From the NCBI RefSeq assembly GCF_900094555.1, contig NZ_FMAC01000004.1, positions 372,001 through 436,000 on the forward strand: a stretch of DNA of 64,000 nt. The letters run 5' to 3'. Positions 8,907-29,254 of the stretch are shown in pieces (positions within the stretch are counted from its first letter, which is position 1; each line of letters starts with the position of its first letter). Origin of the DNA: Martinezella hainanensis. Lineage in GTDB: Bacteria; Pseudomonadota; Alphaproteobacteria; Rhizobiales; Rhizobiaceae. The notes beneath the pieces are model-generated. The model did no database searches, had not been told where the DNA came from, and saw only the letters and a list, made by a program, of their open reading frames with translations. Made by a program: the position numbers and the translations under genes.

Positions 8907-8907
8907 A

Positions 8908-8951
8908 GCAATTCCAGGAAAAGTGCGCAGCGGTTTTCCGTCCGGAATTGC
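8908..8951. repeat. RIME-like intergenic palindrome (AATTCC family)
   Basis: Begins two bases after the amaA stop: GCAATTCCAGGAAAAGTGCG then CAGCGGTTTTCCGTCCGGAATTGC. The ends (GCAATTCC/GGAATTGC) and the inner GGAAAA/TTTTCC pair form a hairpin. Further copies occur at 10546, 46284 (inverted) and 47157. It resembles rhizobial intergenic mosaic elements. Confidence 0.8.
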
Positions 8952-9004
8952 GAGACAATAGATAGAATAGTCAACGAAACAGCATCACGGGAAGAGGAAA
9001 CAAG

Positions 9005-14621: not shown

Positions 14622-15485
14622 TCAATGGGCGAATTTTCGCGCCCCGGCGACGCAGGCGACGACAGCAAGTGTTACGATCAGCATTGACCAGCTGACGCTT
14701 TCCTTGAGGAGCGCTGCGGCAAGTGCAAAGCCGAAGAAGGGCTGCAGGAACTGCAGCTGGCCGACGGCTGCGATGCCGCCCTGGGCAAGCCCGCGATACC
14801 AGAAGACGAAGCCGATCAGCATGCTGAAGAGCGAGACATAGATGAGACCGAGCCAGGCAGGACCGCCGATGCCGTCGATGCTGTGCGGCATGGTCATAAC
14901 GCAGAGCGCGATCATAACCGGCAGCGACAGGACAAGTGCCCAGCAGATGACCTGCCAGCCGCCAAGCCGGCGCGACAGCACCGCGCCTTCGGCATAGCCA
15001 AGGCCGCAGACGATCACGGCAGCCAGCATCAGGAGATCGCCGACCGGCGAGGCCGATATGCCCTGGGCCAGCGCATAGCCGCTGACGAGGGCGCTGCCGA
15101 TGGCGGAGAAGATCCAGAAGGCGGGCCGCGGCCGCTCGCCGCCGCGCAGCACGCCGAAGATGGCGGTTGCCAGCGGCAGCAGGCCTATGAAGACGATTGA
15201 ATGGGCCGAGGTGACATGCTTGAGCGCCAGCGCCGTCAGCAACGGAAAGCCGACGACGCAGCCGAGAGCGACGATGGCGAGTGAGGTGATATCACTGCGG
15301 CTCGGGCGCTTTTCACGAAAGGCAAGCAGCAGGCCAAGACCCAGGAGGCCGGCGATGGCGGCTCGGGCAACGGTCAGGAACAGAGGGTCGAAATCCATCA
15401 CGGCCACCCGCGTCGCCGGCAACGAGCCACTGAAAATCACCACTCCCGTCAAACCGTAGATCCATCCTGTCGTCGTCTTGTCCAT
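14622..15485 (-). CDS. EamA/DMT-family inner-membrane transporter
   Basis: About 287 residues with ten hydrophobic segments in two EamA repeats (YGLTGVVIFSGSLPATRVAV in the first, AWLGLIYVSLFSMLIGFVFW in the second). ATG 15485 is used because AAGGAG lies 8 bases upstream; the longer frame from 15557 adds a polar leader. Family role: efflux of amino acids or other metabolites. It is divergent from the MocR regulator (108-bp gap), a common arrangement in which the regulator controls the exporter. Substrate unknown. Confidence 0.85.
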   Translation of the reverse strand: MDKTTTGWIYGLTGVVIFSGSLPATRVAVMDFDPLFLTVARAAIAGLLGLGLLLAFREKRPSRSDITSLAIVALGCVVGFPLLTALALKHVTSAHSIVFIGLLPLATAIFGVLRGGERPRPAFWIFSAIGSALVSGYALAQGISASPVGDLLMLAAVIVCGLGYAEGAVLSRRLGGWQVICWALVLSLPVMIALCVMTMPHSIDGIGGPAWLGLIYVSLFSMLIGFVFWYRGLAQGGIAAVGQLQFLQPFFGFALAAALLKESVSWSMLIVTLAVVACVAGARKFAH

Positions 15486-15593
15486 TGCGCATGCTCCTTC
15501 TTGATCTTCGCGGTATCGGCGTATTTGCCTGGTCAAGCCAGAGACGGTGCAGTACAATCTATAGGAACTGTTATGGCATGAGAGGCAATACGG

Positions 15594-17003
15594 ATGGATG
15601 ATCTGTCGGTGGCAAGCGCAGCCGGCGGCACGCGCATCGAGGGGGTGATGGCTGCGATTTCGGATCGTATTGCTACCCGCAGCCTGATGACGGGTGCGCG
15701 GCTTCCCTCCGTGCGCGGCTTCGCAAAGACGATGCAGGTGTCGGTTTCCACCGTGGTTGAAGCCTATGAACGGCTCGCCGCCGAAGGCACGATCCGCTCC
15801 CGGCCAGGTGCCGGATTTTATGTCTGCGGCCCGTTGCCGCCGCTTTCGCTGGCCGAGACCGGAGCGAAATCGGATCGCAATGTCGACCCGCTATGGATCT
15901 CCAGGCAATCGCTCGAGGTGGGCGACGATGTCCTGAAGCCCGGCTGCGGCTGGCTCCCACCCTTCTGGCTGCCGCAGGCGGCGTTGCGCAGGGCGATGCG
16001 AACGATGGCGCGCGGAGATATGGGGGCGCTTGCCAATTACGGGACGCCGCTCGGTCTGCCGCCGCTGCGGCAGTTGCTCGCCCGCCGTCTCGGCGAACAT
16101 GGCATCACGGTGCCGCCGGATCAGATCCTGCTGACGGAATCCGGCACGCAGGCGATCGATCTTCTCTGCCGTTTCCTGCTGGAACCCGGCGATACCGTTC
16201 TGGTGGACGATCCCTGCTATTTCAATTTTCACGCGCTCTTGCGGGCGCATCGCGCCAATGTCGTCTCCGTGCCCTTCACGCCTACGGGGCCGGACGTCGA
16301 ACTGTTCGGGCAGATCCTCGAACGGCACAGGCCGCGGCTCTACATCACCAATTCCGCCATACACAATCCGACGGGGGCGACACTCTCGCCCGTGACGGCA
16401 CATCGGCTGCTGAAGCTGGCGGATGCTGCCGGGCTGACGATCATCGAGGACGATATCTTCGCCGATTTCGAGGATGTGCCGGCGCCGCGGCTTGCCGCCT
16501 ATGACGGGCTCGACCGGGTGATCCATATCGGCAGCTTTTCGAAGACGCTTTCGGCCTCGGTGCGCTGCGGTTTCATCGCGGCGCGCCGGGACTGGATCGA
16601 CGGTCTTGTCGATCTCAAGGTCGCCAGCAGCTTCAGTTGCGGCCAATTGTCGGCCGAGCTCGTTTATCTCTCGCTGAAGGATGGCAGCTACCGCAAGCAT
16701 GTCGAGGCTTTGCGGGTACGGCTCGCCAAGACCATGGCGGAGGTATCGACGCGGTTGGAGGCGATCGGCATCGTGCCATGGCTGAAGCCCCGAGCCGGGA
16801 TGTTTCTCTGGTGCAGATTGCCGGAAGGGCTCGATGCTGCCGATGTCGCGCGTGCCTGCCTTGCCGAGGGCGTCGTCCTTGCGCCGGGCAATGTTTTCAG
16901 CCTCTCGGATATGGCCGGACGCTTCATGCGGTTCAACGTCGCGCAGTCGACCGATCCCCGGATCTTCGAGGTGCTGGAGGCCTCCATGCGGAAACTGAGA
17001 TAG
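15594..17003 (+). CDS. MocR-type GntR regulator with aminotransferase domain
   Basis: A 469-residue fusion: N-terminal GntR winged helix (about 12-80; LPSVRGFAKTMQVSVSTVVE, EGTIRSRPGAGFYVCG) and a C-terminal fold-type I aminotransferase (about 110-460) with NSAIHNPTGATLSPVT, EDDIFADFE and the PLP-binding Lys in HIGSFSKTLSASVRCGF. MocR proteins sense PLP or a PLP-amino-acid adduct and control neighbouring genes. The divergent EamA exporter is the likely target. Confidence 0.9.
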   Translation: MDDLSVASAAGGTRIEGVMAAISDRIATRSLMTGARLPSVRGFAKTMQVSVSTVVEAYERLAAEGTIRSRPGAGFYVCGPLPPLSLAETGAKSDRNVDPLWISRQSLEVGDDVLKPGCGWLPPFWLPQAALRRAMRTMARGDMGALANYGTPLGLPPLRQLLARRLGEHGITVPPDQILLTESGTQAIDLLCRFLLEPGDTVLVDDPCYFNFHALLRAHRANVVSVPFTPTGPDVELFGQILERHRPRLYITNSAIHNPTGATLSPVTAHRLLKLADAAGLTIIEDDIFADFEDVPAPRLAAYDGLDRVIHIGSFSKTLSASVRCGFIAARRDWIDGLVDLKVASSFSCGQLSAELVYLSLKDGSYRKHVEALRVRLAKTMAEVSTRLEAIGIVPWLKPRAGMFLWCRLPEGLDAADVARACLAEGVVLAPGNVFSLSDMAGRFMRFNVAQSTDPRIFEVLEASMRKLR

Positions 17004-17164
17004 CGGCTTTTGCCGGTGGATTGCGGTGCATTTTCGCTCTGTTTGAAAGATGCAGGACGCCCGCGCTCTTGCCAGGCGGAAATGATCCGTCATAGCTTTG
17101 CCACATCGCCGCTCCAATTGCGGCTCACATCGGCTATGAAATATAAGGCTAAGTGAGGTCGGTC

Positions 17165-17821
17165 GTGCGCGTTCTGCTAGTTGAAGACGACAATATCCTC
17201 GGGTCATCGCTGAAGAAGGCGCTGGAAAAGCACGCCTATGGAGTCGACTGGATGCGCGACGGCGAATCCGGCCTCGAGGCGGCGGCGCATTCGCATTTCG
17301 CGGCGATCGTTCTCGATATCAATCTGCCGCTGCTGAGCGGCATGGAGGTTTTGCGACGCATCCGCCAGCGGGGAAATTCCGTGCCGGTGCTTTTGCTGAC
17401 GGCAATGGATTCCGTGCGCCAGAAGGTCGAAGGCCTGGATGAGGGCGCCGACGACTATCTGGTCAAGCCGTTCGATCTCGACGAGCTGCTGGCACGGCTG
17501 CGCGCGCTCATCCGCAGGCGCGACGGGCGGACCGAAAGCGTCATCCGCTGCGGCGACGTGGAGGTCGATCCTTCCGCCATGGTGGCGCGCAAGGGCAATG
17601 CGCAGGTCCATACCACGGCGAAGGAATTCCACCTGCTCAAGCTGCTGATGGAGCGCAGCGGCCGCTACGTGACGAAGAACGATATCGAATATGCGCTTTA
17701 TGATGCCGAAAACACCGTCGAGAGCAATACGATCGAAGTGACGATCTACAATCTGCGCAAGAAGCTCGGCACCGATTTCATCAAGTCGATCCGCGGCGTC
17801 GGCTACATGATCGAGCGATGA
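17165..17821 (+). CDS. OmpR/PhoB-family response regulator of the lipid-like gene cluster
   Basis: Receiver domain with acidic pair in VLLVEDD, phospho-acceptor Asp51 in IVLDINLPLLSG, Thr in LLLTAM and Lys in LVKPFD; winged helix at about 125-218 (TAKEFHLLKLLMERSGRYVT, NLRKKLGTDFIKSIRGVGYM). GTG 17165 preceded by GAGG is chosen; a GTG at 17153 is in frame but leaves no RBS. Its stop overlaps the kinase start (ATGA). OmpR-type regulators commonly bind tandem repeats spaced one helical turn; such an array lies at 19217-19260, so the downstream nine-gene operon is the likely target (inference). Confidence 0.9.
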   Translation: MRVLLVEDDNILGSSLKKALEKHAYGVDWMRDGESGLEAAAHSHFAAIVLDINLPLLSGMEVLRRIRQRGNSVPVLLLTAMDSVRQKVEGLDEGADDYLVKPFDLDELLARLRALIRRRDGRTESVIRCGDVEVDPSAMVARKGNAQVHTTAKEFHLLKLLMERSGRYVTKNDIEYALYDAENTVESNTIEVTIYNLRKKLGTDFIKSIRGVGYMIER

Positions 17822-19194
17822 ACAATTCCACGCTTACCCGCAAGCTATTTCTCCGTATCGCGCCCGTCGTCGTGGTGACGATCGTCGTGATCGCCGCTTT
17901 CGCCTTCAACAGTGCGACGCGGGAGATCAACAATATCTACGATGCCCAGCTGATCGACGATGCCAACGTGATCTGGAGCCTGCTGCGCCGCCCGCTGGAG
18001 AAGAATCCGGACCACGCGGCCAAGCAGATCGATGATATCGACTTCAACATGGACAATCAGCTGGCCTTCAACGAAGACGCCGATGATTATGCCGATGCGC
18101 ATATGTTTCGCGCCTGGGTCGACGGCAATATCCGCTTCTACAGCAGCACGGCCTTTCTCTCCGACGTTCCGCAGCAGAAGGTGGGCTTTACCACGCTGAC
18201 CTATGGCGGCGACGAGTGGCGCGTCTATTCGCTGCCGATCCCGAACACGACCATCGTGATCGAGCTTGGCGAAAAGATCGCGCTTCGCGAAACGCTCGTT
18301 TCCAACATTCTGCTCAACCTGTTCTTTCCGCTGCTGATGCTGGTGCCGGTCATCGGCTTTCTCATCTGGCTCGGCATCAATAGCGGTCTGCGCACCATCC
18401 ACGGGCTGGTGCGGCAGATCCGGACAAGATCGCCTGAAGATCTCTCGGCTATCCCTGTCGAAGAGCTGCCGCGCGATCTGCTACCGCTTGGCCGGTCGAT
18501 CAACCAGCTGCTCGAAAAGCTCGGCCAGTCACTAACGCTAGAGCGGCGTTTTTCCGACCTTGCCGCGCATCAGCTGCGCACGCCGCAGGCGAGCGTGAAG
18601 CTGCTCCTGCGGATGCTCGAACACAGCGACAGCGATCACGAGCGGCAGGCGATCATTTCCGATCTCGTGGCCAGCAACAACCGCACCATCCATCTGATCG
18701 AGCAGCTGCTGCGTCTCGCCAGGGTCAGTCATCACCCCCTTAATCTGACATCGGTGCCTCTCTATCACTGGATGGCGTCGCTCATTGCCGAATTCGGCAA
18801 CATCATCACCAGCCGCGAACTCGACGTCGTGCTGGAGGGGGATGAGGTGATCCAGGTCAAGACCGACGAGTCGCTGCTGCGCATGCTGGTCACCAATCTG
18901 CTCGACAACGCCATCAAATACACGCCAGTCGGCGGGGAGATCAAAGTTTCGATCGCTTCGGAGGATGGTTTCGGCCGCATTTCGGTCAGCGACAGCGGCC
19001 CCGGCATCCCGCTACATGAGAGGGAAGCGGTATTCCAGCGCTTCTATCGTCTCAACACGCTTCACACGGAAGGGGCTGGCCTTGGTCTCGCTATCGTTGC
19101 GGATACGGCGGACCGTCTTTCGGCAACGGTCGACCTTTCTACTTCACGTTTGGGCAATGGTCTTCAGGTCGATCTAAGATTGCCGTTGAGTTAA
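17818..19194 (+). CDS. Sensor histidine kinase partner of the 17165 regulator
   Basis: A 458-residue inner-membrane kinase. TM1 about 11-30, periplasmic sensor about 31-160 rich in acidic residues (EDADDYADAH), TM2 about 164-187. Dimerisation helix has FSDLAAHQLRTPQAS: His251 is followed by Gln rather than the common Glu of HELRTP. ATPase domain: N box NLLDNAIKYTP, G1 DSGPGI, G2 GAGLGLAIV. The sensor size and HQLRTP resemble PmrB/QseC/TctE-type kinases. It may sense an envelope or cation cue; the signal is not readable. Confidence 0.88.
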   Translation: MNNSTLTRKLFLRIAPVVVVTIVVIAAFAFNSATREINNIYDAQLIDDANVIWSLLRRPLEKNPDHAAKQIDDIDFNMDNQLAFNEDADDYADAHMFRAWVDGNIRFYSSTAFLSDVPQQKVGFTTLTYGGDEWRVYSLPIPNTTIVIELGEKIALRETLVSNILLNLFFPLLMLVPVIGFLIWLGINSGLRTIHGLVRQIRTRSPEDLSAIPVEELPRDLLPLGRSINQLLEKLGQSLTLERRFSDLAAHQLRTPQASVKLLLRMLEHSDSDHERQAIISDLVASNNRTIHLIEQLLRLARVSHHPLNLTSVPLYHWMASLIAEFGNIITSRELDVVLEGDEVIQVKTDESLLRMLVTNLLDNAIKYTPVGGEIKVSIASEDGFGRISVSDSGPGIPLHEREAVFQRFYRLNTLHTEGAGLGLAIVADTADRLSATVDLSTSRLGNGLQVDLRLPLS

Positions 19195-19216
19195 AAATAC
19201 AACGTCTCGTCGGTTT

Positions 19217-19260
19217 TCATTTTCGCATCATTTTCCGCTCATACCCGGCTCATCTGAGGT
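19217..19260. promoter_or_regulatory. Four phased 11-bp direct repeats, probable response-regulator operator
   Basis: Seen: TCAT occurs at 19217, 19228, 19239 and 19250, exactly 11 bases apart. The units are TCATTTTCGCA, TCATTTTCCGC, TCATACCCGGC and TCATCTGAGGT. PhoB/OmpR-type dimers bind 11-bp direct repeats head to tail. The array lies in the 104-bp gap after the kinase and 39 bases before the HAD phosphatase start, with promoter-like DNA (TTAGAC...TAGGAT) following, so it probably drives the nine-gene operon. Confidence 0.65.
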
Positions 19261-19298
19261 TGTTAGACGCAACTTAGGATAAGGCGAAAGGGTATTTC

Positions 19299-19982
19299 AT
19301 GCAGGTGTTTTGCGATTTTGATGGAACCATATCCATCGAAGACGCGACGGATATGGTGCTAACCCGTTTCGCCGGTTCAGAGTGGGAAGATATTGAACAG
19401 CTGTGGAAGCAGGGGCTGATCGGCTCCGGCGAATGCATGCGCCGCCAGATCGCTCTCATCCAGGCAAATCGCGGCGAGCTCGATCTGTTTCTCGACACGC
19501 TGTCGATCGATCCGGGCTTCGAGAGTTTCCTGTCCTTTTGCCGCCGCGACGAATTGCCTGTCACAATCGTCAGCGATGGTGTGGACTATTTCATCCGCCG
19601 TATCCTGGCGCGCCATGGCATCGAGGGTCTGCCGATCGTCGCCAATGTGCTCACTTGCAGCGTTTCCCAGGGCCGTGAGTCTTATTCGCTGTTTCCGCCA
19701 TTCACGGCGATCGGCTGCGTATCCGGCGCCGGCGTCTGCAAATGCCGCGTCGTCGATAGCAATGATCTGCAGGTCTACATCGGCGACGGGCGAAGCGACT
19801 TCTGCGTTTCCGACAAGGTCGACCTCGTTTTCGCCAAGTCCAAGCTTGTCGACTACTGCGAGGAAAACGCCATTCCCTATGTCGGCTTCGAAGACTTTTC
19901 CGATCTGCTTCCAAAGATGGAAGCCGTTCTCCCGAGCGTCGAGCGACGCTCCCGTACGCTGCCGCATTTCAAGACGGCGTAA
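19299..19982 (+). CDS. HAD-IB (MtnX/phosphoserine phosphatase-like) phosphatase
   Basis: A 227-residue HAD phosphatase. Motif I FCDFDGTIS (nucleophile Asp6, acid Asp8), motif II-type VTIVSDGVDYF and motif IV YIGDGRSDFCVSDKVD are present; the four-helix C1 cap lies about residues 15-80. Members dephosphorylate small metabolites such as phosphoserine or methylthiopentenyl phosphates. A CKCR in the middle is unusual and could bind metal. First gene of the nine-gene operon; 20 bases separate it from the aminotransferase. The physiological substrate is unknown, but release of an alcohol intermediate in the pathway is likely. Confidence 0.85.
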   Translation: MQVFCDFDGTISIEDATDMVLTRFAGSEWEDIEQLWKQGLIGSGECMRRQIALIQANRGELDLFLDTLSIDPGFESFLSFCRRDELPVTIVSDGVDYFIRRILARHGIEGLPIVANVLTCSVSQGRESYSLFPPFTAIGCVSGAGVCKCRVVDSNDLQVYIGDGRSDFCVSDKVDLVFAKSKLVDYCEENAIPYVGFEDFSDLLPKMEAVLPSVERRSRTLPHFKTA

Positions 19983-20002
19983 ACCAGACCAAGAGGCATT
20001 GA

Positions 20003-21421
20003 ATGAAAACGAATGCAGCCCAGGCCTTCAGCGGCGAGACCGAGTCCGTCCGCTCCGAAGAAGAATTGCGCGCCCTCGAAGAGCTCTATTGCTCGCATGG
20101 CGACACGGTTCACTACACTGACAAGCCTAAATTCTTCGAGGAATGCGAAGGTTCCTTCGTCTACGATCGGACCGGAACGCCGTTCCTCGATCTGCAGATG
20201 TGGTACTCCGCCGTCAATTTCGGCTATCGCAATGAGCGCCTGAACGAAGCGGCTCATCGCCAGCTCGATCGCCTGCCGCAGGTCGCCTCGCAATATCTGC
20301 ACCGTGAGAAGGTGGAGCTTGCGGCGATGATTGCGCAGGATGCCGAGCGCAAGTTCGGTCACAAGGGCCGCGTCCACTTCAACGTCGGCGGCTCGCAGGC
20401 CGTCGAGGATTCGCTGAAGCTCGTGCGCAACTACACCGGCGGCAAGAGCCTGATGTTCGCCTTCGAAGGCGGCTATCACGGCCGCACGCTCGGTGCGTCG
20501 GCAATCACCTCGAGCTATCGCTATCGCCGTCGCTACGGCCATTTCGGCGATCGTGCCCAGTTCGTCGAATTCCCCTATTACTTCCGCGGCCCGAAGGGCA
20601 TGTCGAAGGAAGAATACGGACATTATTGCGTCCAGAAGTTCGCCCGCCTGTTCGAGAGCGAATATAACGGCGTCTGGGATCCGAAGGCCGGCAAGTCCGA
20701 ATATGCCGCCTTCTACATCGAGCCGATCCAGGGCACCGGCGGCTACGTCATCCCGCCGATGAACTTCTTCGTCGAACTGAAGAAGGTTCTCGACGACCAT
20801 GGCATCCTGCTCGTTGTCGATGAAATCCAGATGGGCGTCTACCGCACCGGCAAACTCTGGTCGATCGAGCATTTCGGCGTTTCGCCTGACATTCTCGTCT
20901 TCGGCAAGGCGATCACCAACGGCCTCAACCCGCTTTCGGGCGTCTGGGCCCGCGAAGAGATGATCAACCCGACCATCTTCCCGCCCGGCTCCACGCATTC
21001 GACCTTCGCCAGCAACCCGATGGGTACTGCCGTTGCGCTCGAAACCATGAAGATGCTGGAAGAGGAAGATTTCGGCGCCGCCATCATGGAGAAGGGTGCG
21101 CACTTCCTCGACGGGCTGAAGCAGCTGCAGAAGCGCCACGCCATTGTCGGCGAAGTCGATGGTCTCGGCCTCGCGCTGCGCATGGAAATCTGCCAGGACG
21201 ACAGCTACACGCCGAGCAAGGCGACGATGGACTGGATGTGCGACGAAGGCATGAAGGGCGACCTTCAGGTCGGCGGCAAGACCTATGGCCTCGTGCTCGA
21301 TGTCGGCGGCTACCACAAGAACGTCATCACGTTTGCTCCCAACCTGCTCATCAGCCGCGAAGAGATCGACCTGGCGCTTGCCCTGCTCGATCAGCTTCTG
21401 ACGCGCGCTGCCCGGAGATAA
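20003..21421 (+). CDS. Class III PLP-dependent aminotransferase
   Basis: A 472-residue fold-type I enzyme. Seen: HFNVGGSQAVEDSLKLVRNY, GGYHGRTLGASAITSSYRY, the PLP ring contact LLVVDEIQMGVYRTGK, the Schiff-base Lys in VFGKAITNGLNPLSG and HSTFASNPMGTAVALETM. Class III members transfer an amino group between a terminal amine such as ornithine, diaminobutyrate or a polyamine and a 2-oxoacid. It lies between a HAD phosphatase and an arginase-fold hydrolase, suggesting handling of a diamine or amidino-amine precursor (inference). Confidence 0.9.
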   Translation: MKTNAAQAFSGETESVRSEEELRALEELYCSHGDTVHYTDKPKFFEECEGSFVYDRTGTPFLDLQMWYSAVNFGYRNERLNEAAHRQLDRLPQVASQYLHREKVELAAMIAQDAERKFGHKGRVHFNVGGSQAVEDSLKLVRNYTGGKSLMFAFEGGYHGRTLGASAITSSYRYRRRYGHFGDRAQFVEFPYYFRGPKGMSKEEYGHYCVQKFARLFESEYNGVWDPKAGKSEYAAFYIEPIQGTGGYVIPPMNFFVELKKVLDDHGILLVVDEIQMGVYRTGKLWSIEHFGVSPDILVFGKAITNGLNPLSGVWAREEMINPTIFPPGSTHSTFASNPMGTAVALETMKMLEEEDFGAAIMEKGAHFLDGLKQLQKRHAIVGEVDGLGLALRMEICQDDSYTPSKATMDWMCDEGMKGDLQVGGKTYGLVLDVGGYHKNVITFAPNLLISREEIDLALALLDQLLTRAARR

Positions 21422-21425
21422 GGCC

Positions 21426-22379
21426 GTGCAACTGCTGCTTCTTCATCTCGATGATGCTTTGGAGTTGCAGCCTGATTTTGTGCGCGCCTGCAAATTTGCG
21501 GGCGCGCACCAGTTTTTCGGCAAGAATGCGGGGCAACAGGTTCGGCTGTGGAGCAAACAGAGTGCTCTTGATGATCTCAGTCGAGAGATCGTCAAGAACA
21601 GGCCGACGACCGGCAAGGACCCGCAATTGTGCTTCATGGGCTCCGGCGATTTCCACCATGTTACGGCTCTGCTGCTCGACGGCGCACTCGAACGACAATC
21701 CGGCGCGACCACGCTGATCCACTTCGACAATCATCCGGATTGGGTCAAATTCGACGGCGGCATGCATTGTGGCTCCTGGGTCAATCGCGCTCTTGCCAAC
21801 CCCAGTATCCAGAAGGTCGTCACGATTGGCGTCTGCAGCCATGATCTTCGCAGTCCGGAGCGCAAGGGCGCCAACCTGCACTGGCTCGGCGACGGCAAGC
21901 TGGAACTCTACCCTTACGAACATCCGCCGAGCCGCGTGGTGGCCGACTACGGCACCGGTGCCAGCTATCGGCAGGAAAGAGGTGCGCTGCACTGGAAATC
22001 GATCGTCGAAATCGGCGAGGACAATTTCATTGACCACATGCTCAGCCGCATTCGTACCGAGGCCGTCTACGTCACGATTGACAAGGATGTGCTGGCGGCC
22101 GACGATGCCGTTACCAATTGGGATCAGGGCCGCATGCGGCTGCCCTATCTCCTGGCTCTGATCAGCGAAATCGGCAGCCGCCACCGCATCATCGGCGCGG
22201 ATGTCATCGGGGATTATTCAACTCCGAGCTATGCTGGCAGCCTTCGAACACAGTTCATGAAGCGTGCGGAGATCTTCATCGATCAGCCGCGCATGCGGCA
22301 GGGTGCCGAAACAATGAGGAATATCAACAGCGCGGCCAATCACGCCCTGCTGGAGGTGCTGGCGGAGTATATGCAATGA
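21426..22379 (+). CDS. Arginase/ureohydrolase-fold protein
   Basis: A 317-residue protein whose order of metal motifs matches ureohydrolases: GSGDFHHVT (His77/78), HFDNHPDW (Asp101, His103, Asp105), MHCGSW (His114) and YVTIDKDVL (Asp219, Asp221). Surrounding residues differ from arginase, agmatinase and formiminoglutamase, so the substrate cannot be assigned; hydrolysis of a guanidino, amidino or amide bond is expected. The start follows the aminotransferase stop by 4 bases and the end overlaps the next gene by 4. Confidence 0.75.
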   Translation: MQLLLLHLDDALELQPDFVRACKFAGAHQFFGKNAGQQVRLWSKQSALDDLSREIVKNRPTTGKDPQLCFMGSGDFHHVTALLLDGALERQSGATTLIHFDNHPDWVKFDGGMHCGSWVNRALANPSIQKVVTIGVCSHDLRSPERKGANLHWLGDGKLELYPYEHPPSRVVADYGTGASYRQERGALHWKSIVEIGEDNFIDHMLSRIRTEAVYVTIDKDVLAADDAVTNWDQGRMRLPYLLALISEIGSRHRIIGADVIGDYSTPSYAGSLRTQFMKRAEIFIDQPRMRQGAETMRNINSAANHALLEVLAEYMQ

Positions 22380-22729
22380 CTGGCAGCCTGACACTTCCCA
22401 TGCTTGGGCTCATCTTGTTCTGCGTGGTCGCCGAGACCGCCCGCGAAGTCTGCTTCAAGCAATCGGCCAGCGAGAACGCCCCCCTTAAGGCGCTGGCAAA
22501 ACCGGTCACCTGGCTCGGCATTCTGCTCTGGGCCGTGGAGCTTTTCACCTGGACGGCCGTTCTGGAGCACGTACCACTGACCATCGCCTTCCCGCTGATG
22601 GCGATGAGCTATGTTGTCATCGTGCTCGCCGGTGCCGTCATCTTCAAGGAAAACATCAACCTGCGCCACGCGACGGGCGTTTTTCTCGTCACCGCCGGAG
22701 TGGTTTGCGTGGGAGTTACAGGACTATGA
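22376..22729 (+). CDS. Four-helix SMR/EamA-like membrane protein (first of two)
   Basis: A 117-residue protein with four hydrophobic helices (LTLPMLGLILFCVVAETARE, WLGILLWAVELFTWTAVL, MAMSYVVIVLAGAVIF, GVFLVTAGVVCVGV). Size and the conserved Glu in helix 1 fit the small multidrug-resistance fold; ArnE/ArnF, which flip aminoarabinose-undecaprenyl phosphate, are also paired four-helix proteins. A second such gene lies at 25532-25963 in the same operon, so a heterodimeric flippase is plausible. Confidence 0.75.
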   Translation: MTGSLTLPMLGLILFCVVAETAREVCFKQSASENAPLKALAKPVTWLGILLWAVELFTWTAVLEHVPLTIAFPLMAMSYVVIVLAGAVIFKENINLRHATGVFLVTAGVVCVGVTGL

Positions 22730-23598
22730 AAATCTTTGCGCACACTCGATGGGATCTGGCACCGGTTCTGGCTGCCGTCGCCCATCTCGCCTTCGACGTC
22801 TATCTGATCGTCGGCTTCGAAAGCCGGCCGCTTTGGCTCTCGGCCATTCTCGGCTGCCTCTATGCCGTTTCGATCTCCTGGAACATCAACAGCATATCGC
22901 ACAATTTCATCCACACGCCTTATTTCAAGCCGCGCTGGATGAACTACGGCTTCAGCCTGCTGGAATCGGTCGCGATCGGCTTTTCGCAGACCTATTATCA
23001 CTGGGTGCATATGCGCCATCATTCCGGCAACAGCGACCGTCCGAACGAAAAGGGCGAGACGATCGACATGTTGTCGATCTATCGCTATGGCCGCGACGGC
23101 CAACCGGAAAACGTCTGGTCCTATACGTTCCTGAGCTTTTTCCGTGACAGCCTCGGCGATATTCACAAGGCAATTGCCCGCAACCGCCCGTTCGATGCCG
23201 CCTGGGGGCGGTTCGAGCTCTATTTCTTCCTGGGGCTTGCCGCGATCGCGCTGATCTACGACTGGAAGGCGGTCCTCTTCTTCGTGCCGTTCTACTATAT
23301 CGGCAATTGCCTGTCGTCGTTGAACGGCTATTACGAGCACCTGAACGGTGATCCGGACGAGCCGATCGCCTGGGGCGTTTCGAGCCACCAGCCTTTCTAC
23401 AACTGGCTGTGGTTCGGCAACGGTTATCACGCCGAGCATCACTATCGTCCGCGCACCCACTGGACGAAGCTTCCGGCGCTGCACGACCAGATCAAGGAAG
23501 AGCAGGAAAAGAACGGTACGCATGTGATCAGCACCTGCCATGCGCTTGGCTTCATGGCCAAGGAAAACCGGCAGTCGGAGCTATCTCATGAAAGCTGA
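22726..23598 (+). CDS. Membrane fatty-acid desaturase/hydroxylase
   Basis: A 290-residue di-iron membrane enzyme. Three histidine boxes are visible: HNFIH (59-63), HMRHH (95-99) and HAEHH near residue 238, plus hydrophobic hairpins at about 12-50 and 165-200. Family role: desaturation or hydroxylation of acyl chains using O2. ATG 22726 overlaps the upstream SMR-like stop in ATGA form. Placement with a cyclopropane synthase-like gene suggests modification of the acyl part of the product. Confidence 0.88.
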   Translation: MKIFAHTRWDLAPVLAAVAHLAFDVYLIVGFESRPLWLSAILGCLYAVSISWNINSISHNFIHTPYFKPRWMNYGFSLLESVAIGFSQTYYHWVHMRHHSGNSDRPNEKGETIDMLSIYRYGRDGQPENVWSYTFLSFFRDSLGDIHKAIARNRPFDAAWGRFELYFFLGLAAIALIYDWKAVLFFVPFYYIGNCLSSLNGYYEHLNGDPDEPIAWGVSSHQPFYNWLWFGNGYHAEHHYRPRTHWTKLPALHDQIKEEQEKNGTHVISTCHALGFMAKENRQSELSHES

Positions 23599-24403
23599 TG
23601 AATTGAGCTTCTTCATGGAGGGCTCAAACGGCAAGGGCGTCCTTCTGGTCCACGGACTGACGGGGGCACCTGCCGAAATGAAGCTGGTGGCTCGGCATCT
23701 CAACCGCAAGGGCTATAGCGTCTATGCGCCGCTGCTGGCCGGCCACGGCGTCGATGCGAAGACCTTGCGCCAGACCCGTTGGGAAGACTGGCTCGCCTCG
23801 GTTGTCGAGGCATCGGAGCTGCTGGCATCCAGAACGCAGGAAGTTTTCGCCGCCGGTATCTGCGTCGGCGGCAAGCTCGCGATGCTGGCTGCCGAACAGC
23901 AGAAGAAGACCATCAGCGCCGTGGCGATCTATTCCCCCTGCTTCAGTTATGACGGCTGGGACGTTCCTTTCTACTATCCGCTGCTGGCCTCGCAGATCGG
24001 CTGGCTGTCGCGCGTTCCCTTTCTCGATCGGTTGAGTTTCAGCGAGACGACCTCGCTCGGGATCAAGGACGAGCGCATGCGCCGGCTGATCGAAGGCATG
24101 GCGAGCGAAGGGGTCCTGGAAAAGTTCCCCGGCAAGGGTTTGGTCGAGATGCATCGGCTGGGCAAGACGCTTCGCAGCATGCTGCCGCAGATGCAGACGC
24201 CGACGCTGATCCTGCATGCCGAGGACGACGATCTCGCCAGCCCGAAACATGCCCGCTATATTTCCGAGCATATCGGTGCTCCGCACGAGCTGAAATGGAT
24301 CACCGACAGCTATCACATGATCCATGTCGACCGGCAGCATCGGCAGGTGGCCGATTTCACGGCCGATTTCTTCGAGGCGCGCCATGTCGCAGCCGCTGCT
24401 TAA
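23588..24403 (+). CDS. Alpha/beta hydrolase with Cys in the nucleophile position
   Basis: A 271-residue protein like carboxylesterase Est30 or monoacylglycerol lipase: oxyanion-region VLLVHGLTGAP, nucleophile elbow FAAGICVGGKLAML, acid Asp in LHAEDDDLASP and base His243 in SYHMIHVD. The residue usually Ser is Cys92 (codon TGC), which may favour acyl transfer over hydrolysis, or reflect a specialised thioester chemistry. The gene overlaps the desaturase by 11 bases and the next gene by 20, so expression is translationally coupled. Confidence 0.8.
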   Translation: MKADELSFFMEGSNGKGVLLVHGLTGAPAEMKLVARHLNRKGYSVYAPLLAGHGVDAKTLRQTRWEDWLASVVEASELLASRTQEVFAAGICVGGKLAMLAAEQQKKTISAVAIYSPCFSYDGWDVPFYYPLLASQIGWLSRVPFLDRLSFSETTSLGIKDERMRRLIEGMASEGVLEKFPGKGLVEMHRLGKTLRSMLPQMQTPTLILHAEDDDLASPKHARYISEHIGAPHELKWITDSYHMIHVDRQHRQVADFTADFFEARHVAAAA

Positions 24404-25532
24404 AATCGTGCCGCAGTCGATCGGTAACCCGGTGGCCGAAGTTCATTTCAGTATTCGCGCCATCGGCCGCGATGCATGGAATGCGTGCTTTCCGAATGAT
24501 GTCGAGGACTATGATTGTCTGCTGGCGATCGAGGAGGCCGGCCTCGAAGGGTTCGAATGGCGCTATATTACCCTTACGGAAGGTGGACATGTGAGCGTCG
24601 CCATGCCGGCCTTTCTCTGCCTCTATGCTCTCGATACGACGCTGGATGAGGGGTTCCTGCGCCGGTCCGTGCGCAGCGTGCAACGGTATTTTCCAGGTTT
24701 TCTGAAGCTGCGTCTTGCATGTTTGGGATCGCCCTGCACCGAGACCGGTGCGATCGGCTTTCATCCTGACGTCCCGCAGGAGCGTCGTCGCATACTCCTG
24801 ACGGAGATGTTGTCCTTTTTCGAGCAGGTCGCCGCGACGGAGCGTTGTGCGCTGATCGGTCTGAAGGATATTCCGGAGCAGGCTTCGGCGGAGTTCGGCG
24901 ATCTATTTGCCGCGCGCGGCTATGCCTCGATCGGCGCTCTTCCGACGGCGTGGCTCGACATCGATTTCAAGACGATCGATGAATATCTCGCCAGGCTTTC
25001 GTCCGGCACCCGCAAGGACATGCGCCGCAAGATGAAATCCTTCGACCAGGTCAGGGTCGAGATGCGGACGGATTTCGGCGAATTCCTGCCCCAGGTGATG
25101 GCGCTCTATCACGACACGCGCAACCGCAGCGAATGGCAGTTCGAGGAGCTGACACCAGCCTATTTCCAGGGCATTCTCGCCTACATGCCCGGCCGCTCCT
25201 TCTGCGCCTTCTATTTCGTCGGGGACAAGCTGCTCGCCGCCAACCTGATCGTGCATGACGGGCGCATGGCCATCGACAAGTTCTTCTGCATGGATGGGGA
25301 AAAGGGGCGACCCTACAATCTCTATTTCATCAGCTGGTTTACCAATCTGCGTTACTGCCTGGAGAACGGCCTGAGCCGTTATCAGAGCGGCCAGGCCCAT
25401 TATGAAAACAAGCTGCGCCTCGGCAGCAAGCTGACCGCCAATGCGATGTATTTCCACCATCGCAACCCATTGCTTCAGAGTGTGCTGCGGCTGGTATCGC
25501 CGCTGTTCTCGACAGACGAGGCGGATGCGTAA
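24384..25532 (+). CDS. FemAB/GNAT-like (BioF2 type) aminoacyl or acyl transferase
   Basis: A 382-residue protein with a C-terminal GNAT/FemAB-like half: TRKDMRRKMKSFDQVRVEMR, FRNR-like TRNRSEW, AFYFVGDKLLAANLIVHDG and LYFISWFTNLRYCLENGLSR. Such proteins move aminoacyl, acetyl or acyl groups to an amine. No membrane segment is visible. It may attach the amine-bearing unit to a lipid or peptide precursor in this operon (inference). The start ATG 24384 lies within the upstream hydrolase frame. Confidence 0.7.
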   Translation: MSQPLLKIVPQSIGNPVAEVHFSIRAIGRDAWNACFPNDVEDYDCLLAIEEAGLEGFEWRYITLTEGGHVSVAMPAFLCLYALDTTLDEGFLRRSVRSVQRYFPGFLKLRLACLGSPCTETGAIGFHPDVPQERRRILLTEMLSFFEQVAATERCALIGLKDIPEQASAEFGDLFAARGYASIGALPTAWLDIDFKTIDEYLARLSSGTRKDMRRKMKSFDQVRVEMRTDFGEFLPQVMALYHDTRNRSEWQFEELTPAYFQGILAYMPGRSFCAFYFVGDKLLAANLIVHDGRMAIDKFFCMDGEKGRPYNLYFISWFTNLRYCLENGLSRYQSGQAHYENKLRLGSKLTANAMYFHHRNPLLQSVLRLVSPLFSTDEADA

Positions 25533-25963
25533 TGCCTAGTATACGTTTTTTCTGGCTTGCCGTGCCGGTGCTGAGCACGCTGTACCAAGTTCTCATCAAG
25601 CTTGGCGCCGGGCATTTGCACGATGAAGGTATGCAGGCATGGCTGTGGCAAGCCCTTTCCTCTCCATGGATATTGCTGGCCATAGCCATCGAGATCGTCG
25701 GTTTCTTCATCTGGATGAATGTGTTGGCCGAGCTCGATCTCAGCCGCGCCTTTCCGCTTACGGGCATCAGCTACGTGCTGATCGTCGCGACCGGCTGGTT
25801 CGTCTTTGGCGAGCGGGTCGTCGCCTTGCAGATGGTCGGTAGCGGCTTGATCCTGACGGGGGTCTGGCTGATTGCAGGCGCCGGTGTCGAGACGAAAGAG
25901 CATCAAGAGGAATTGGAGCCGAAGCAGGAGGAACTGCGTACGGGGACGGGCAAGGATAGGTGA
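25532..25963 (+). CDS. Four-helix SMR/ArnE-like membrane protein (second of two)
   Basis: A 143-residue protein with four hydrophobic helices (VPVLSTLYQVLIKLGAG, ILLAIAIEIVGFFIWMNVL, GISYVLIVATGWFVFG, VGSGLILTGVWLIAGAG) and a charged C-terminal tail rich in Glu, Gln and Lys. The fold resembles EmrE and ArnE/F. The start codon shares a base with the previous stop (TAATG). With the 22376 gene it could form a two-subunit flippase. Confidence 0.75.
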   Translation: MPSIRFFWLAVPVLSTLYQVLIKLGAGHLHDEGMQAWLWQALSSPWILLAIAIEIVGFFIWMNVLAELDLSRAFPLTGISYVLIVATGWFVFGERVVALQMVGSGLILTGVWLIAGAGVETKEHQEELEPKQEELRTGTGKDR

Positions 25964-27303
25964 TGTCCAATATGCAAGCTGACAATCGCCCCAAGGGCAA
26001 AGGCAATGCGGTTTTCTCCGGTCTGACGGATTGGTGCGTCAAGCGCGCATTGTCTTCGATCGTCACGCGCGGCGCGCTGACCGTGACGACGGCAAGCGGC
26101 CGTGTGCTGTCCTTTGGCGACGGCACCGGCGAGCCGGTCCATGTCCGTTTCACCGACGATCGCGCCGAATGGGCGCTTCTCATCGATGCCGATAAGCGGC
26201 TTGGCGAACTCTTCATGGACGGCCGCTTTATCGTCGAGCGCGGCACGCTCTATGATTTCGTGGCGATGATGCTGCGCGAGGGGCAGAACAGTACCCACCC
26301 GCTCATTGCCCGCATCATCGATCACATCAGGACGAAGCTGCGGATTTTCCGCCACCGCAATCTGCCTGGGCGATCGAAAGCCAATGTCGCGCATCACTAT
26401 GACCTCGATGGCCGGCTCTACGAGCTCTTCCTCGATCCGGACCGGCAATATTCCTGCGCCTATTTCGAGCATGCGGATCAATCGCTTGATGACGCGCAGA
26501 TTGCCAAGAAGCGCCATCTCGCCGCCAAGCTTTTGATCCAGCCGAACAACAGCATCCTCGACATCGGCTGCGGCTGGGGCGGCCTGGCGCTGCACATGGC
26601 GGAGCAGGCGCCGGGCGGCTACGTGCTCGGCGTCACGCTTTCCGAGGAACAGCACGAATATGCTTCGAAGCGCGTTGCCGACAGGGCCGGGGGAACGCCG
26701 GCCGAGGTTCAGTTCGCGCTGAGGGACTATCGCAGCCTGACCGGCCGTTTCGACAGGATCGTCTCAGTCGGCATGTTCGAACATGTCGGGCTCGCCTCCT
26801 ATCGCACCTTCTTCCGCAAATGCGCTGAATTGCTCGAGGATGACGGCATCATGGTGCTGCACACCATCGGCTGTTCGGCGACGCCCGGCTTCACCACGCC
26901 ATGGCTCGACAAATACATCTTCCCAGGCGGTTATATTCCGGCACTGTCCGAAATCGTGCCCGAGATCGAGGCGGCTGGACTTGCCATCACCGATGTCGAA
27001 GTGCTGCGGCTGCATTATGCCAAGACGCTCGAGGCGTGGCGGGAGCGCTTCATGGCGCGCTGGGACGATGCCGCCAAGCTTTACGACGAGCGCTTCTGCC
27101 GGATGTGGGAGTATTATCTTTCGACGGCGGAGGCCGCCTTCCGCTACGAGGATCTCGTCGTCTTCCAGATCCAGATCGCCAAGCGCAACGACATCATCCC
27201 GCTGACGCGCAACTACATCGCCGAGAATGAAGCGAAGAGCGCCTCAAAAATTGATGTTGAAGGTTCTGTTCAGCGTGAAGCCAATGATGTTCTGGTCGGG
27301 TGA
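25963..27303 (+). CDS. Cyclopropane-fatty-acyl-phospholipid synthase-like methyltransferase
   Basis: A 446-residue enzyme. The N-terminal lipid-interaction region (about 30-130) is followed by NVAHHYDLDGRLYELFLDPD and YSCAYFE, SAM-binding motif ILDIGCGWGGLALHMAE, VGMFEHVG, and HTIGCSATPGF with WLDKYIFPGGYIPALSE, all characteristic of CFA synthases. They methylenate unsaturated acyl chains on phospholipids. As the last gene of the operon it would use double bonds made by the upstream desaturase. ATG 25963 shares a base with the previous stop. The 3' end overlaps the convergent MipA gene by 60 bases. Confidence 0.9.
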   Translation: MSNMQADNRPKGKGNAVFSGLTDWCVKRALSSIVTRGALTVTTASGRVLSFGDGTGEPVHVRFTDDRAEWALLIDADKRLGELFMDGRFIVERGTLYDFVAMMLREGQNSTHPLIARIIDHIRTKLRIFRHRNLPGRSKANVAHHYDLDGRLYELFLDPDRQYSCAYFEHADQSLDDAQIAKKRHLAAKLLIQPNNSILDIGCGWGGLALHMAEQAPGGYVLGVTLSEEQHEYASKRVADRAGGTPAEVQFALRDYRSLTGRFDRIVSVGMFEHVGLASYRTFFRKCAELLEDDGIMVLHTIGCSATPGFTTPWLDKYIFPGGYIPALSEIVPEIEAAGLAITDVEVLRLHYAKTLEAWRERFMARWDDAAKLYDERFCRMWEYYLSTAEAAFRYEDLVVFQIQIAKRNDIIPLTRNYIAENEAKSASKIDVEGSVQREANDVLVG

Positions 27304-28092
27304 GCCGAAGCGCGAGGTGATCGGGCTATCGGCGGCATCGCCCACAAGACGGTTATATTTCTCGTAGACCTGCACGCTCCATTCCGGGGAGATCGTATAG
27401 GTCGCAGCCACGGTGAAGCCGACCGATTTCACGCCGGCGCCGGCATCGAAGGCATTGATATGGCCATGTCTCGCAGCTTCACTCTCCGAGATGCCGAAGT
27501 TGGTGCGCATATACACTGAATTTGCCATCGACAGGCGAGGGCCGGCAGACAGGAGCCATTTGTCTCCGAGCGGCTGGAACCAGTCGAGGGCGAAATCACC
27601 GACCAGACCATCGCCGCCCCAAAGCGACTGGCGTATTTCCGTGCGGAACCGGAGCCGATTTTCCATCAGCCAATATTGAGCGAAGCCGCCTGCATCGAAA
27701 TTCCAGCGCACCCTGCGCTGGCTTTGCAGATGCAGATCATTGAGATCGAAGCGGTCATCTCTCAAGCCGACCACAGGGCCGATTTCGAGGCCGCCGAGAT
27801 CGAAAAGCTGAAAGTCGAAATTGTCGTCCGGAGCGCTGTATTCCGTGGCCTCGCCGAGGCGGTGGACGTCGAAAGATGGCAGGGCGCCGAAGGTATAGTG
27901 CTTCGATCCCTCATAGCTCGGTCCGTATTCCACGGTTGCCCCAAGCGTGACGACCCAAGTGCTGGATGAGGATTTAGGGGCGTCGTCCGCTCTGGAAGAG
28001 GCGGGAAACATACCGGCTATAGACGCCGCCAGCAGCCCCGTTCCGGCCAGCACGGAGAGCCGGGCGGAGAAAGATGTCCCAACATTTAACAC
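27244..28092 (-). CDS. MipA/OmpV family outer-membrane protein
   Basis: A 282-residue protein with signal peptide (LSVLAGTGLLAASIAGMFPA, cleavage near SSRADDA) and a beta-barrel pattern of alternating hydrophobic residues; GATVEYGPSYEGSKHYTFGA and the C-terminal FTLNRTFNINF ending in Phe are typical of outer-membrane insertion. Family: MltA-interacting protein/OmpV, scaffolding or transport. The gene is convergent and overlaps the CFA-like gene; it may form part of the envelope response of that cluster, though this is only suggested by position. Confidence 0.85.
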   Translation of the reverse strand: MLNVGTSFSARLSVLAGTGLLAASIAGMFPASSRADDAPKSSSSTWVVTLGATVEYGPSYEGSKHYTFGALPSFDVHRLGEATEYSAPDDNFDFQLFDLGGLEIGPVVGLRDDRFDLNDLHLQSQRRVRWNFDAGGFAQYWLMENRLRFRTEIRQSLWGGDGLVGDFALDWFQPLGDKWLLSAGPRLSMANSVYMRTNFGISESEAARHGHINAFDAGAGVKSVGFTVAATYTISPEWSVQVYEKYNRLVGDAADSPITSRFGSPDQNIIGFTLNRTFNINF

Positions 28093-28507: not shown

Positions 28508-29254
28508 ATGAAGCATCGGCCATTCGGCACATCGGGTATCCCTGGGTGGTTGAACCGCTACGAGCCCTTGCTGCTCGTGATGTTCGCCGCGCTTTCGGGC
28601 GGAATTCTTCTCTTCATCTACCTCACGGGAGAGGTCCTCGAAGGCAGCACGAAGGGGTTCGACGAGGCGATCCTGCTGGCGCTTCGCCAGCCTGGCGATC
28701 TTTCTGTTCCGATCGGACCGGGTTGGCTGACCCATGCGGTCAAGGATATTACGAGCCTCGGCGGGACGACGGTGCTTGCGCTGATGACGGCCCTGGTGAC
28801 GATCTATCTGTTGTTCGACCGGCAACGCGCCATCGCCATCTTCATCCTTGTGTCGGTGCTTGGCGGATGGGCGCTGAGTGCGGTCCTGAAGGTCGGCGTT
28901 GCGCGGCCGAGGCCGGATATCGTGCCGCATCTGGTCGAGGTCCACGATCTGAGCTTTCCGAGCGGCCATGCGATGGTGTCGGCCGTGACCTATCTGACCC
29001 TTGCCGCGCTGATCTCAGGCACGCGAACCTATCGTTCGACGCGCGTTTTCACCGTCGCGGCCGGCATCCTTTTGACATTGATGATCGGCGCGAGCCGGAT
29101 CTATCTGGGTGTCCACTACCCCACCGACGTTCTCGGTGGCTGGTGCGCTGGCGCGACCTGGGCGCTCGCCTGCTGGATCATCGCCCGCCGCTATATATCG
29201 CTTGTCCCAAACGGCGAGCGATCGGCGCGAGACGATGCTCCGCCTTTCAAATGA
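28508..29254 (+). CDS. PAP2-type membrane phosphatase
   Basis: A 248-residue protein with about six membrane helices and the three catalytic motifs of PAP2 enzymes: KVGVARPRPD, PSGHA and SRIYLGVHYPTDVLGG. Family members dephosphorylate phosphatidic acid, phosphatidylglycerol phosphate, undecaprenyl pyrophosphate or lipid A at the membrane. Neighbour of the lipid-like operon but on its own promoter. The specific lipid is not determinable. Confidence 0.88.
   Translation: MKHRPFGTSGIPGWLNRYEPLLLVMFAALSGGILLFIYLTGEVLEGSTKGFDEAILLALRQPGDLSVPIGPGWLTHAVKDITSLGGTTVLALMTALVTIYLLFDRQRAIAIFILVSVLGGWALSAVLKVGVARPRPDIVPHLVEVHDLSFPSGHAMVSAVTYLTLAALISGTRTYRSTRVFTVAAGILLTLMIGASRIYLGVHYPTDVLGGWCAGATWALACWIIARRYISLVPNGERSARDDAPPFK

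Follow-up and report, generated by a model that had tools for sequence, protein, structure and literature searches.

The operon considered here lies on the forward strand of a 64,000-nucleotide stretch of Martinezella hainanensis DNA (contig NZ_FMAC01000004.1, positions 372,001 to 436,000), referred to below as the window and forming part of a genome of 7.25 Mb. It comprises nine genes, running from a HAD-type phosphatase to a cyclopropane fatty acid (CFA) synthase, and is preceded by the genes for a response regulator and a sensor histidine kinase (Table 1). The open reading frame (ORF) table places 104 bases between the kinase and phosphatase genes, and the eight junctions that follow measure +20, +4, -4, -4, -11, -20, -1 and -1 bases. 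A first-pass annotation of this DNA had given the same gene positions and junctions, which the ORF table reproduced exactly, and its picture of a co-transcribed unit is upheld by this geometry on a single strand. The gene families that it had named were confirmed by Pfam and NCBIfam scans. Downstream, the 3' end of a MipA/OmpV family gene overlaps that of the CFA synthase gene by 60 bases.

Table 1. Genes at the locus, with their window coordinates and the basis of each assignment or start
Gene	Position	Strand	Remarks
OmpR-family response regulator	17153..17821	+	GTG start at 17153 or a later start
Sensor histidine kinase with 2CSK_N	17818..19194	+	PF08521, HisKA, HATPase_c (Pfam)
MtnX-like HAD-IB phosphatase (core)	19299..19982	+	TIGR01489, above cut-off
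Class III pyridoxal 5'-phosphate (PLP) enzyme, aminotransferase type (core)	20003..21421	+	PF00202
Arginase-fold metal hydrolase (core)	21426..22379	+	PF00491
SMR/EamA-half protein 1, SMR1 (core), ArnE-like	22376..22729	+	ATG start within a longer TTG ORF
Membrane fatty acid desaturase family protein (add-on)	22726..23598	+	PF00487, 102.9 bits
Alpha/beta hydrolase (core), nucleophile motif GICVG	23588..24403	+	PF12146
FemX/MprF-like two-GNAT-domain transferase (core)	24384..25532	+	PF04339; FemAB_like/Acetyltransf_6
SMR/EamA-half protein 2, SMR2 (core), ArnF-like	25532..25963	+	NCBIfam nearest model
CFA synthase (add-on), Brucella-type	25960..27303	+	ATG start at 25963 or GTG start at 25960
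MipA/OmpV family protein	27244..28092	-	Convergent with the operon

Conservation of the gene set

The PLP enzyme was used to scan species genomes, and of the 88 loci confirmed the best 80 were kept; this named sample is biased towards close relatives. A complete core, taken as the HAD phosphatase, PLP enzyme, arginase-fold enzyme, alpha/beta hydrolase, transferase and at least two SMR proteins within 9.5 kb, was present in 68 of the 80 loci, all 68 on one strand. Seven of the 12 incomplete loci had less than 15 kb of sequence, and loci L154 and L168 held only the phosphatase, PLP enzyme and hydrolase. The desaturase occurs in 56 of the 68 complete loci, a same-strand CFA synthase in 41 and MipA in 50, while the eight complete loci with an ABC exporter hold no MipA gene. 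The conserved unit has seven genes, not the nine first proposed, the desaturase and CFA synthase being add-ons.

Judged by the PLP enzyme, the closest named loci (96-98% identical) are those of Rhizobium tropici, R. rhizogenes and their relatives. Five annotated rhizobial plasmid loci have a PLP enzyme 86-89% identical to that of the window; for Bartonella and Xanthomonas the figure is 70-73%, against 26-33% for their transferase and arginase-fold proteins. The same gene order was observed on plasmids of Rhizobium leguminosarum, Agrobacterium fabrum 2788, Rhizobium sp. Pop5 and Phyllobacterium zundukense, and, with no CFA synthase, on a plasmid of Sinorhizobium sp. B11. The kinase gene is not annotated on the R. 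leguminosarum plasmid, but a tblastn match is present.

Of 72,556 plasmid records, 48 carry the transferase and 47 carry the arginase-fold gene at E 1e-5. The tallies by organism were equal save for one Nostoc record with the transferase only, and the 40 of the 47 arginase-fold records that were listed all fell within the transferase list. The PLP enzyme was detected on 34 records (E 1e-100); one Roseomonas, one Aureimonas and one Azospirillum plasmid carry beside the core a class III protein resembling glutamate-1-semialdehyde (GSA) aminomutase instead. Some of the module-bearing plasmids are typed as conjugative. R. acidisoli has one copy on each of two plasmid records. In R. vallis CCBAU 65647 there are also two loci, of which only one includes the desaturase and CFA synthase. 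Such plasmid spread and duplicate copies suggest that the module moves.

Two plasmids carry more unusual arrangements. That of Nostoc sp. C052 (L028) encodes a distant transferase together with a class III PLP enzyme, a desaturase, a nitric oxide synthase oxygenase and a DevABC exporter, and the fetched stretch of a plasmid from the bat-derived Bartonella sp. HY328 (L027) holds only the PLP enzyme, transferase and arginase-fold gene of the set, adjoined by an MBOAT acyltransferase.

A less biased picture came from 398 genomes of the phylum searched with the PLP enzyme at E 1e-150, 25 of which, including the window genome, gave a match. Within 9 kb in the other 24 lay the HAD phosphatase (21), the hydrolase (21), the transferase (13), the arginase-fold gene (13), an SMR gene (13) and MipA (5); the complete set was found within this distance in 10. 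Four further genomes hold all the parts: in G476 they span about 11.5 kb and in G431 about 17 kb, G505 has a second locus of transferase, arginase-fold and two SMR genes, and in G248 the set is divided between contigs. Locus L080 has the PLP enzyme alone, at 54% identity. When the arginase-fold protein was searched for in 297 genomes of the order, 11 gave a match, again counting the window genome, and among the other ten the set was present in G248, G265, G292 (two copies), G121, G150 and G198, the last three with the GSA-aminomutase-like PLP enzyme. The first-pass annotation had proposed conserved synteny as a check on its reading, to be refuted if the genes did not co-occur elsewhere. The check did not refute it: the gene set is conserved across genomes, and its recurrence on plasmids and in genomes of other families and classes indicates that it did not come together by chance.

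This distribution also bears on a mundane explanation, namely that the locus is an ordinary acyl-chain remodelling operon, made up of the desaturase and CFA synthase, into which the amine genes were picked up by chance in Rhizobium. The window's CFA synthase is one of three full-length copies in its genome, and MipA occurs twice, each time near a CFA synthase, so that the CFA and MipA neighbours are found a second time without the core. The core, however, occurs without desaturase and CFA synthase in many lineages, and such synteny largely refutes this explanation, which we consider very improbable. The second MipA gene (G000:C13:96189-98688, L185) lies about 0.7 kb from the second CFA synthase gene, with no core gene in 20 kb.

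Enzymes and carriers of the operon

The HAD phosphatase scores 104.2 bits against TIGR01489 (cut-off 81.55), which places it in that superfamily, and does not reach the cut-off of the MtnX methionine-salvage phosphatase (TIGR03333, 92.6 against 303.2); its DFDGT motif is kept in 113 homologues. The PLP enzyme belongs with the class III aminotransferases, scoring above the PF00202 gathering threshold and having the PLP lysine, the region of which is kept in 113 sequences. It reached no NCBIfam equivalog cut-off among the best 25 of 69 families (273.4 against 552 at best) and forms a separate subfamily in which threonine replaces the C-terminal arginine of many class III transaminases. In many class III enzymes that arginine binds the substrate carboxylate. 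The threonine stands in NVIT or NTIT before (F/L/M)AP in 107 of the 113 PLP enzymes, and two of the remaining six, when aligned, also had threonine. Several relatives in the same genome likewise lack the arginine, so the threonine argues only against an enzyme of the acetylornithine or gamma-aminobutyrate type.

The predicted model of the arginase-fold protein (predicted local distance difference test score, pLDDT, 94) matches ureohydrolases at Z 21.6-23.5 among the 50 entries shown, which assigns it to that fold superfamily. Ureohydrolases bind their metals through His, Asp, His, Asp, Asp and Asp, and the corresponding positions H77, D101, H103, D105, D219 and D221 are invariant in 31 arginase-fold sequences. 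An aspartate of the protein aligns with the ureohydrolase glutamate that binds guanidinium. The agmatinase cut-off was not reached (TIGR01230, 31.9 against 174.3).

The first-pass annotation had described the alpha/beta hydrolase as having a cysteine nucleophile. This holds for the window protein and for 77 of 107 sequences, the other 30, from other lineages, having serine; DD and YH positions are kept in the 107 sequences where the triad aspartate and histidine are expected. In locus L077 (genome G348, 7866-9479, - strand) the hydrolase ORF runs on into the first half of the transferase domain, and it does so too at a contig end in L075 (G427). These ORFs may combine both functions in a fusion, although that of L077 could instead be a broken gene.

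The transferase had been labelled FemAB/GNAT. That it is a transferase stands, and its predicted model (pLDDT 90) is that of a FemX/MprF-like protein with two GNAT domains. The nearest structures are FemX, FemA and Sbb17/Sba18 (Z 19.9-22.1 over 272-303 residues, 12-18% identity), led by FemX 6snr (Z 22.1, 303 residues aligned, root-mean-square deviation 4.5), with Sbb17 at Z 21.4. MprF domains follow at Z 17.7-19.4, a range that overlaps with tandem acetyltransferases (up to 17.8). A sequence search of solved structures gave no credible match for this protein. Pfam lists PF04339 and PF13480, and LPG_synthase_C (PF09924) was listed neither for the window transferase nor for 33 aligned sequences; PF02388 was matched weakly in 7 of the 33 (best E 6.2e-05) and not listed for the window protein. 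The motif (R/Q)xxGx(G/A), which marks the acyl-CoA loop, was absent at the two places tested in 101 transferases. Because the protein models as FemX/MprF-like with two GNAT domains, aminoacyl transfer would seem as likely as acyl transfer. A PF09924 protein of the MprF type is encoded on another contig of the same genome, so the module would act beside MprF.

The two SMR proteins were compared across the 96 loci with exactly two such genes, 70 of which belong to the named sample of close relatives. An acidic residue (Glu/Asp) is present in helix 1 of the first SMR protein in all 96 and of the second in 22. More distant PF04339-type transferases in L177, L178 and L179 directly adjoin SMR-like proteins of their own where no arginase-fold gene is present, a hint that transferase-plus-SMR systems form a broader kind.

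As regards the add-ons, three histidine boxes are kept in 67 desaturase homologues, and comparison of the desaturase with solved chains gave only two matches, both weak and unrelated. The CFA synthase scores 595.8 bits against NF053839 (cut-off 600) and 302.7 bits against PF02353.

Setting of the core and nature of the product

The regulator is nearest to the NCBIfam models QseB and PmrA, below both cut-offs. Homologues of the regulator, 82-85% identical, precede the same operon in loci L022-L024, and the regulator and kinase pair is present in 55 of the 68 complete named loci; unrelated types of two-component system also recur beside the core. An acidic stretch of the kinase sensor region (NEDADDYADAH) is conserved across 67 aligned kinases. 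Alignment of the upstream regions of 54 regulator genes, the window's included, revealed no nameable shared operator-like site. The pair may control the operon.

For 124 loci with one core gene or more, further neighbours lying no more than 8 kb from a core gene were counted with seed sequences; these loci were gathered by several routes and are not independent. ABC permease was found in 18, ATPase in 19, HlyD in 15, TolC in 9, ketoacyl synthase (KAS) in 10, DegT in 10, a GSA-aminomutase-like protein in 6, and a sigma-54-type regulator and kinase in 16 and 14. Three genomes have one or two homologues of the ABC permease apiece and two plasmids have a single one each. The best one's position fits the core locus, so its presence at the core is not a background effect; it is absent from the window genome at E 1e-20. 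MipA/OmpV proteins, two-component systems and MacB-like exporters are recurrent neighbours. In A. fabrum 2788, eptA and dgkA lie downstream of the operon; in A. fabrum 1D132 and on pAspH13-3a the operon is flanked by MacB-type and TolC-ABC-HlyD genes, and in Xanthomonas sacchari HlyD, ABC ATPase, TolC and kinase genes lie beside the core. The envelope-type setting claimed at first pass is consistent with these neighbours (MipA, the exporters and eptA).

Around the window's operon, a protein that we take to be a lipid phosphatase of the PAP2 type, its phosphatase motifs read by eye, is encoded after MipA (28508-29254, + strand) and could belong to the envelope neighbourhood. Upstream of the regulator and kinase is a divergent pair, also read by eye, which presumably encodes a full-length EamA-type transporter (14622-15557, - strand) and a regulator of the MocR/GntR-aminotransferase type (15594-17003, + strand). 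Anti-phage defence was rejected as a role for the operon: the first eight operon proteins matched no PADLOC model (E 1e-5), and the CFA synthase matched one (mad2, 77.7 bits).

Our preferred interpretation, held tentatively, is that the operon is a stress-controlled biosynthesis and export module whose product is a cationic (amino)acylated compound of the envelope, most likely a lipid. Three unrelated kinds of acyl enzyme are found beside the one core (desaturase, CFA synthase, and KAS with acyl carrier protein, ACP), and the enzymes of amine chemistry there are the class III PLP enzyme or, in six loci, its GSA-aminomutase-like counterpart, together with DegT in ten. Because three acyl-chain functions and different aminating enzymes gather round a single core, a product with both acyl and amine parts is indicated, and the first-pass claim of amine chemistry is supported. 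Export is suggested by the helix-1 acid, universal in the first SMR protein and infrequent in the second, and by the ABC permease at the core; a link to envelope stress is suggested by MipA, by eptA and dgkA, by the EptC and antimicrobial-peptide-type ABC genes around the set in Serratia sp. HRI, and by the unrelated types of two-component system. The sequences themselves thus establish the linkage of the genes, the preserved catalytic motifs, the folds as predicted, the difference between the two SMR proteins and the neighbourhood; what the product is, that it is a lipid and that stress controls the operon are what we infer.

The steps, and their order, might be as follows. The acidic periplasmic stretch of the kinase would sense envelope stress and the operon would be switched on. 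The PLP enzyme and HAD phosphatase would convert a phosphorylated carbonyl precursor to an amine of the amino-alcohol type, to which the FemX-like transferase would add an aminoacyl (or acyl) group; the arginase-fold enzyme could then strip a guanidino or amidino group, leaving an amine, and the alpha/beta hydrolase could remove or move an acyl group. The two SMR proteins may pair as an asymmetric, proton-coupled heterodimer and transport the product through the inner membrane. The desaturase and CFA synthase of rhizobia would adapt acyl chains concurrently, and the add-on of other lineages would be an ABC-HlyD-TolC exporter, KAS/ACP or DegT.

A number of observations weigh against the preferred interpretation. 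The first-pass annotation had likened the SMR pair to ArnE and ArnF; these are indeed the nearest NCBIfam models, but SMR1 scores 53.5 bits against the ArnE cut-off of 92 and SMR2 42.4 against the ArnF cut-off of 99. N-myristoyltransferases match the transferase model at Z about 16, and the shared folds of the predicted models do not prove aminoacyl or guanidino chemistry. Pfam and NCBIfam revealed no polyprenyl glycosyltransferase or ArnT-like transferase in the operon, and EptA lies beside the core in only 1 of the 124 loci. The distribution is patchy, 373 of the 398 phylum genomes, three of the same genus among them, having no match to the PLP enzyme at E 1e-150. In seven of the 24 other positive genomes the locus has only the phosphatase, PLP enzyme and hydrolase of the core (L074-L079, L081), although three of these loci sit on contigs shorter than 8 kb. 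The transferase has no more than weaker homologues in six of the seven, for the most part away from the locus, and none at E 1e-8 in the seventh, G423; it is likewise lacking in G299 and G323. Of the ten further genomes of the order in which the arginase-fold gene was found, four are without most of the set: G030, G139 and G190 have that gene (47-50% identical; L084, L086 and L085, respectively) without the remainder, and in G085 it is split over two ORFs beside the hydrolase only. In L144 (Ochrobactrum sp. Q0168) the operon is complete except for the arginase-fold gene. Since this locus lacks one core gene and other genomes hold only part of the set, the interpretation is slightly weakened. 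Six neighbours scanned around the arginase-fold genes in L084 and L086 gave no lead.

A polyketide-type cluster around the trio of phosphatase, PLP enzyme and hydrolase was considered and rejected: the neighbours scanned in L074, L077 and L078 were of housekeeping type or unmatched, and only a KAS in L078 would fit. KAS is also present in L076, L079 and L081.

In a different explanation the operon makes a natural product or signal that is small, soluble and cationic, such as a diamine, aminocyclitol or polyamine conjugate, with the SMR pair resembling a polyamine exporter and ABC-HlyD-TolC secreting the compound. ABC-HlyD(-TolC) genes adjoin the core in Agrobacterium, Caulobacter, Brevundimonas, Xanthomonas and others, DegT lies beside it in ten loci, the transferase fold is Sbb17-like, and proclavaminate amidinohydrolase, an enzyme of antibiotic synthesis, is among the nearest arginase-like folds (Z 22.9). 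Against this, the desaturase and CFA synthase lie inside the operon in rhizobia, the best NCBIfam scores of the SMR proteins are to ArnE and ArnF, and the operon has no nonribosomal peptide synthetase or polyketide synthase. On balance we regard a soluble product as rather unlikely.

It could also be that the operon serves resistance or detoxification, the transferase, arginase-fold enzyme and hydrolases modifying an incoming cationic drug or peptide that the SMR pair or ABC set then expels. ABC 'antimicrobial peptide' genes, EptA/EptC and MipA are among the neighbours, and the plasmid spread would suit such a role. A published table for the disinfectant-resistant Serratia sp. HRI places the same set, judged by gene names and sizes, in a genomic island, with an ABC 'antimicrobial peptide' exporter on one side and an EptC gene on the other; in the passages of that report on such genes, an SMR protein and a GNAT-like protein in an island are put forward as possible resistance genes and no pathway is proposed (PMC9964261). 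The PLP enzyme, phosphatase and acyl-chain enzymes, however, suit biosynthesis better than drug modification, and the PLP enzyme shows much stronger conservation than the other parts, which fits a fixed cellular substrate. Detoxification is improbable.

Comparison with known systems

No description of the seven-gene set was found in a search of open-licence papers, and one may exist in subscription papers or preprints; the first-pass annotation had likewise recognised no described pathway. The set is kept in several classes of Pseudomonadota, on chromosomes and plasmids, and sometimes stands next to genes for defence against cationic peptides. If a cationic lipid is made, the module would be a mobile mechanism of resistance to antimicrobial peptides or acid in soil, plant-associated and some clinical bacteria, and a role would be given to PF04339 transferases, to this arginase-fold subfamily and to SMR pairs. 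Rhizobia are challenged by plant nodule peptides, and the module could bear on survival against them.

More broadly, there is a possible, if unlikely, case for a third general route, beside Arn/Ept and MprF, to a more cationic Gram-negative envelope, in which a soluble FemX-like enzyme would load an amino acid (or acyl) group onto a new amine scaffold supplied by the PLP enzyme and phosphatase, the arginase-fold enzyme would trim it and an asymmetric SMR heterodimer would flip the resulting lipid. This route would, with the same reservation, be modular and often plasmid-borne, extending from rhizobia to Xanthomonas and, by the published gene list, Serratia.

Individual components have recognisable relatives. 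The arginase-fold enzyme shares with arginase, agmatinase and proclavaminate amidinohydrolase the fold, the metal-ligand positions and an aspartate aligned with their glutamate, yet it falls far under the agmatinase cut-off and is 11-18% identical to such enzymes. FemX, FemA and the streptothricin enzyme Sbb17, which are aminoacyl-tRNA-dependent, are the best structural matches of the transferase, whereas sequence identity is low and PF02388 is weakly matched in only a minority of its family.

The module as a whole is closest in plan to Arn and MprF. With Arn (pmrHFIJKLM) it shares an aminotransferase step, a pair of SMR/EamA-half proteins, an envelope setting and two-component control, under which the Arn system is placed. 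It differs in that its operon has no ArnA, ArnC, ArnD or ArnT-type proteins (ten proteins scanned, with the best 25 families of long lists), its SMR proteins fall short of the ArnE and ArnF cut-offs, and its core has a class III PLP enzyme in place of the DegT-type ArnB. With the aminoacyl-phosphatidylglycerol synthase MprF/LpiA it shares a transferase of similar fold, a membrane carrier and the logic of a cationic envelope; in contrast, PF09924 is not listed for its transferase and its carrier is a separate SMR pair. In plan the module resembles Arn or MprF, but the sequence-based tests of membership failed for both systems and it belongs to neither.

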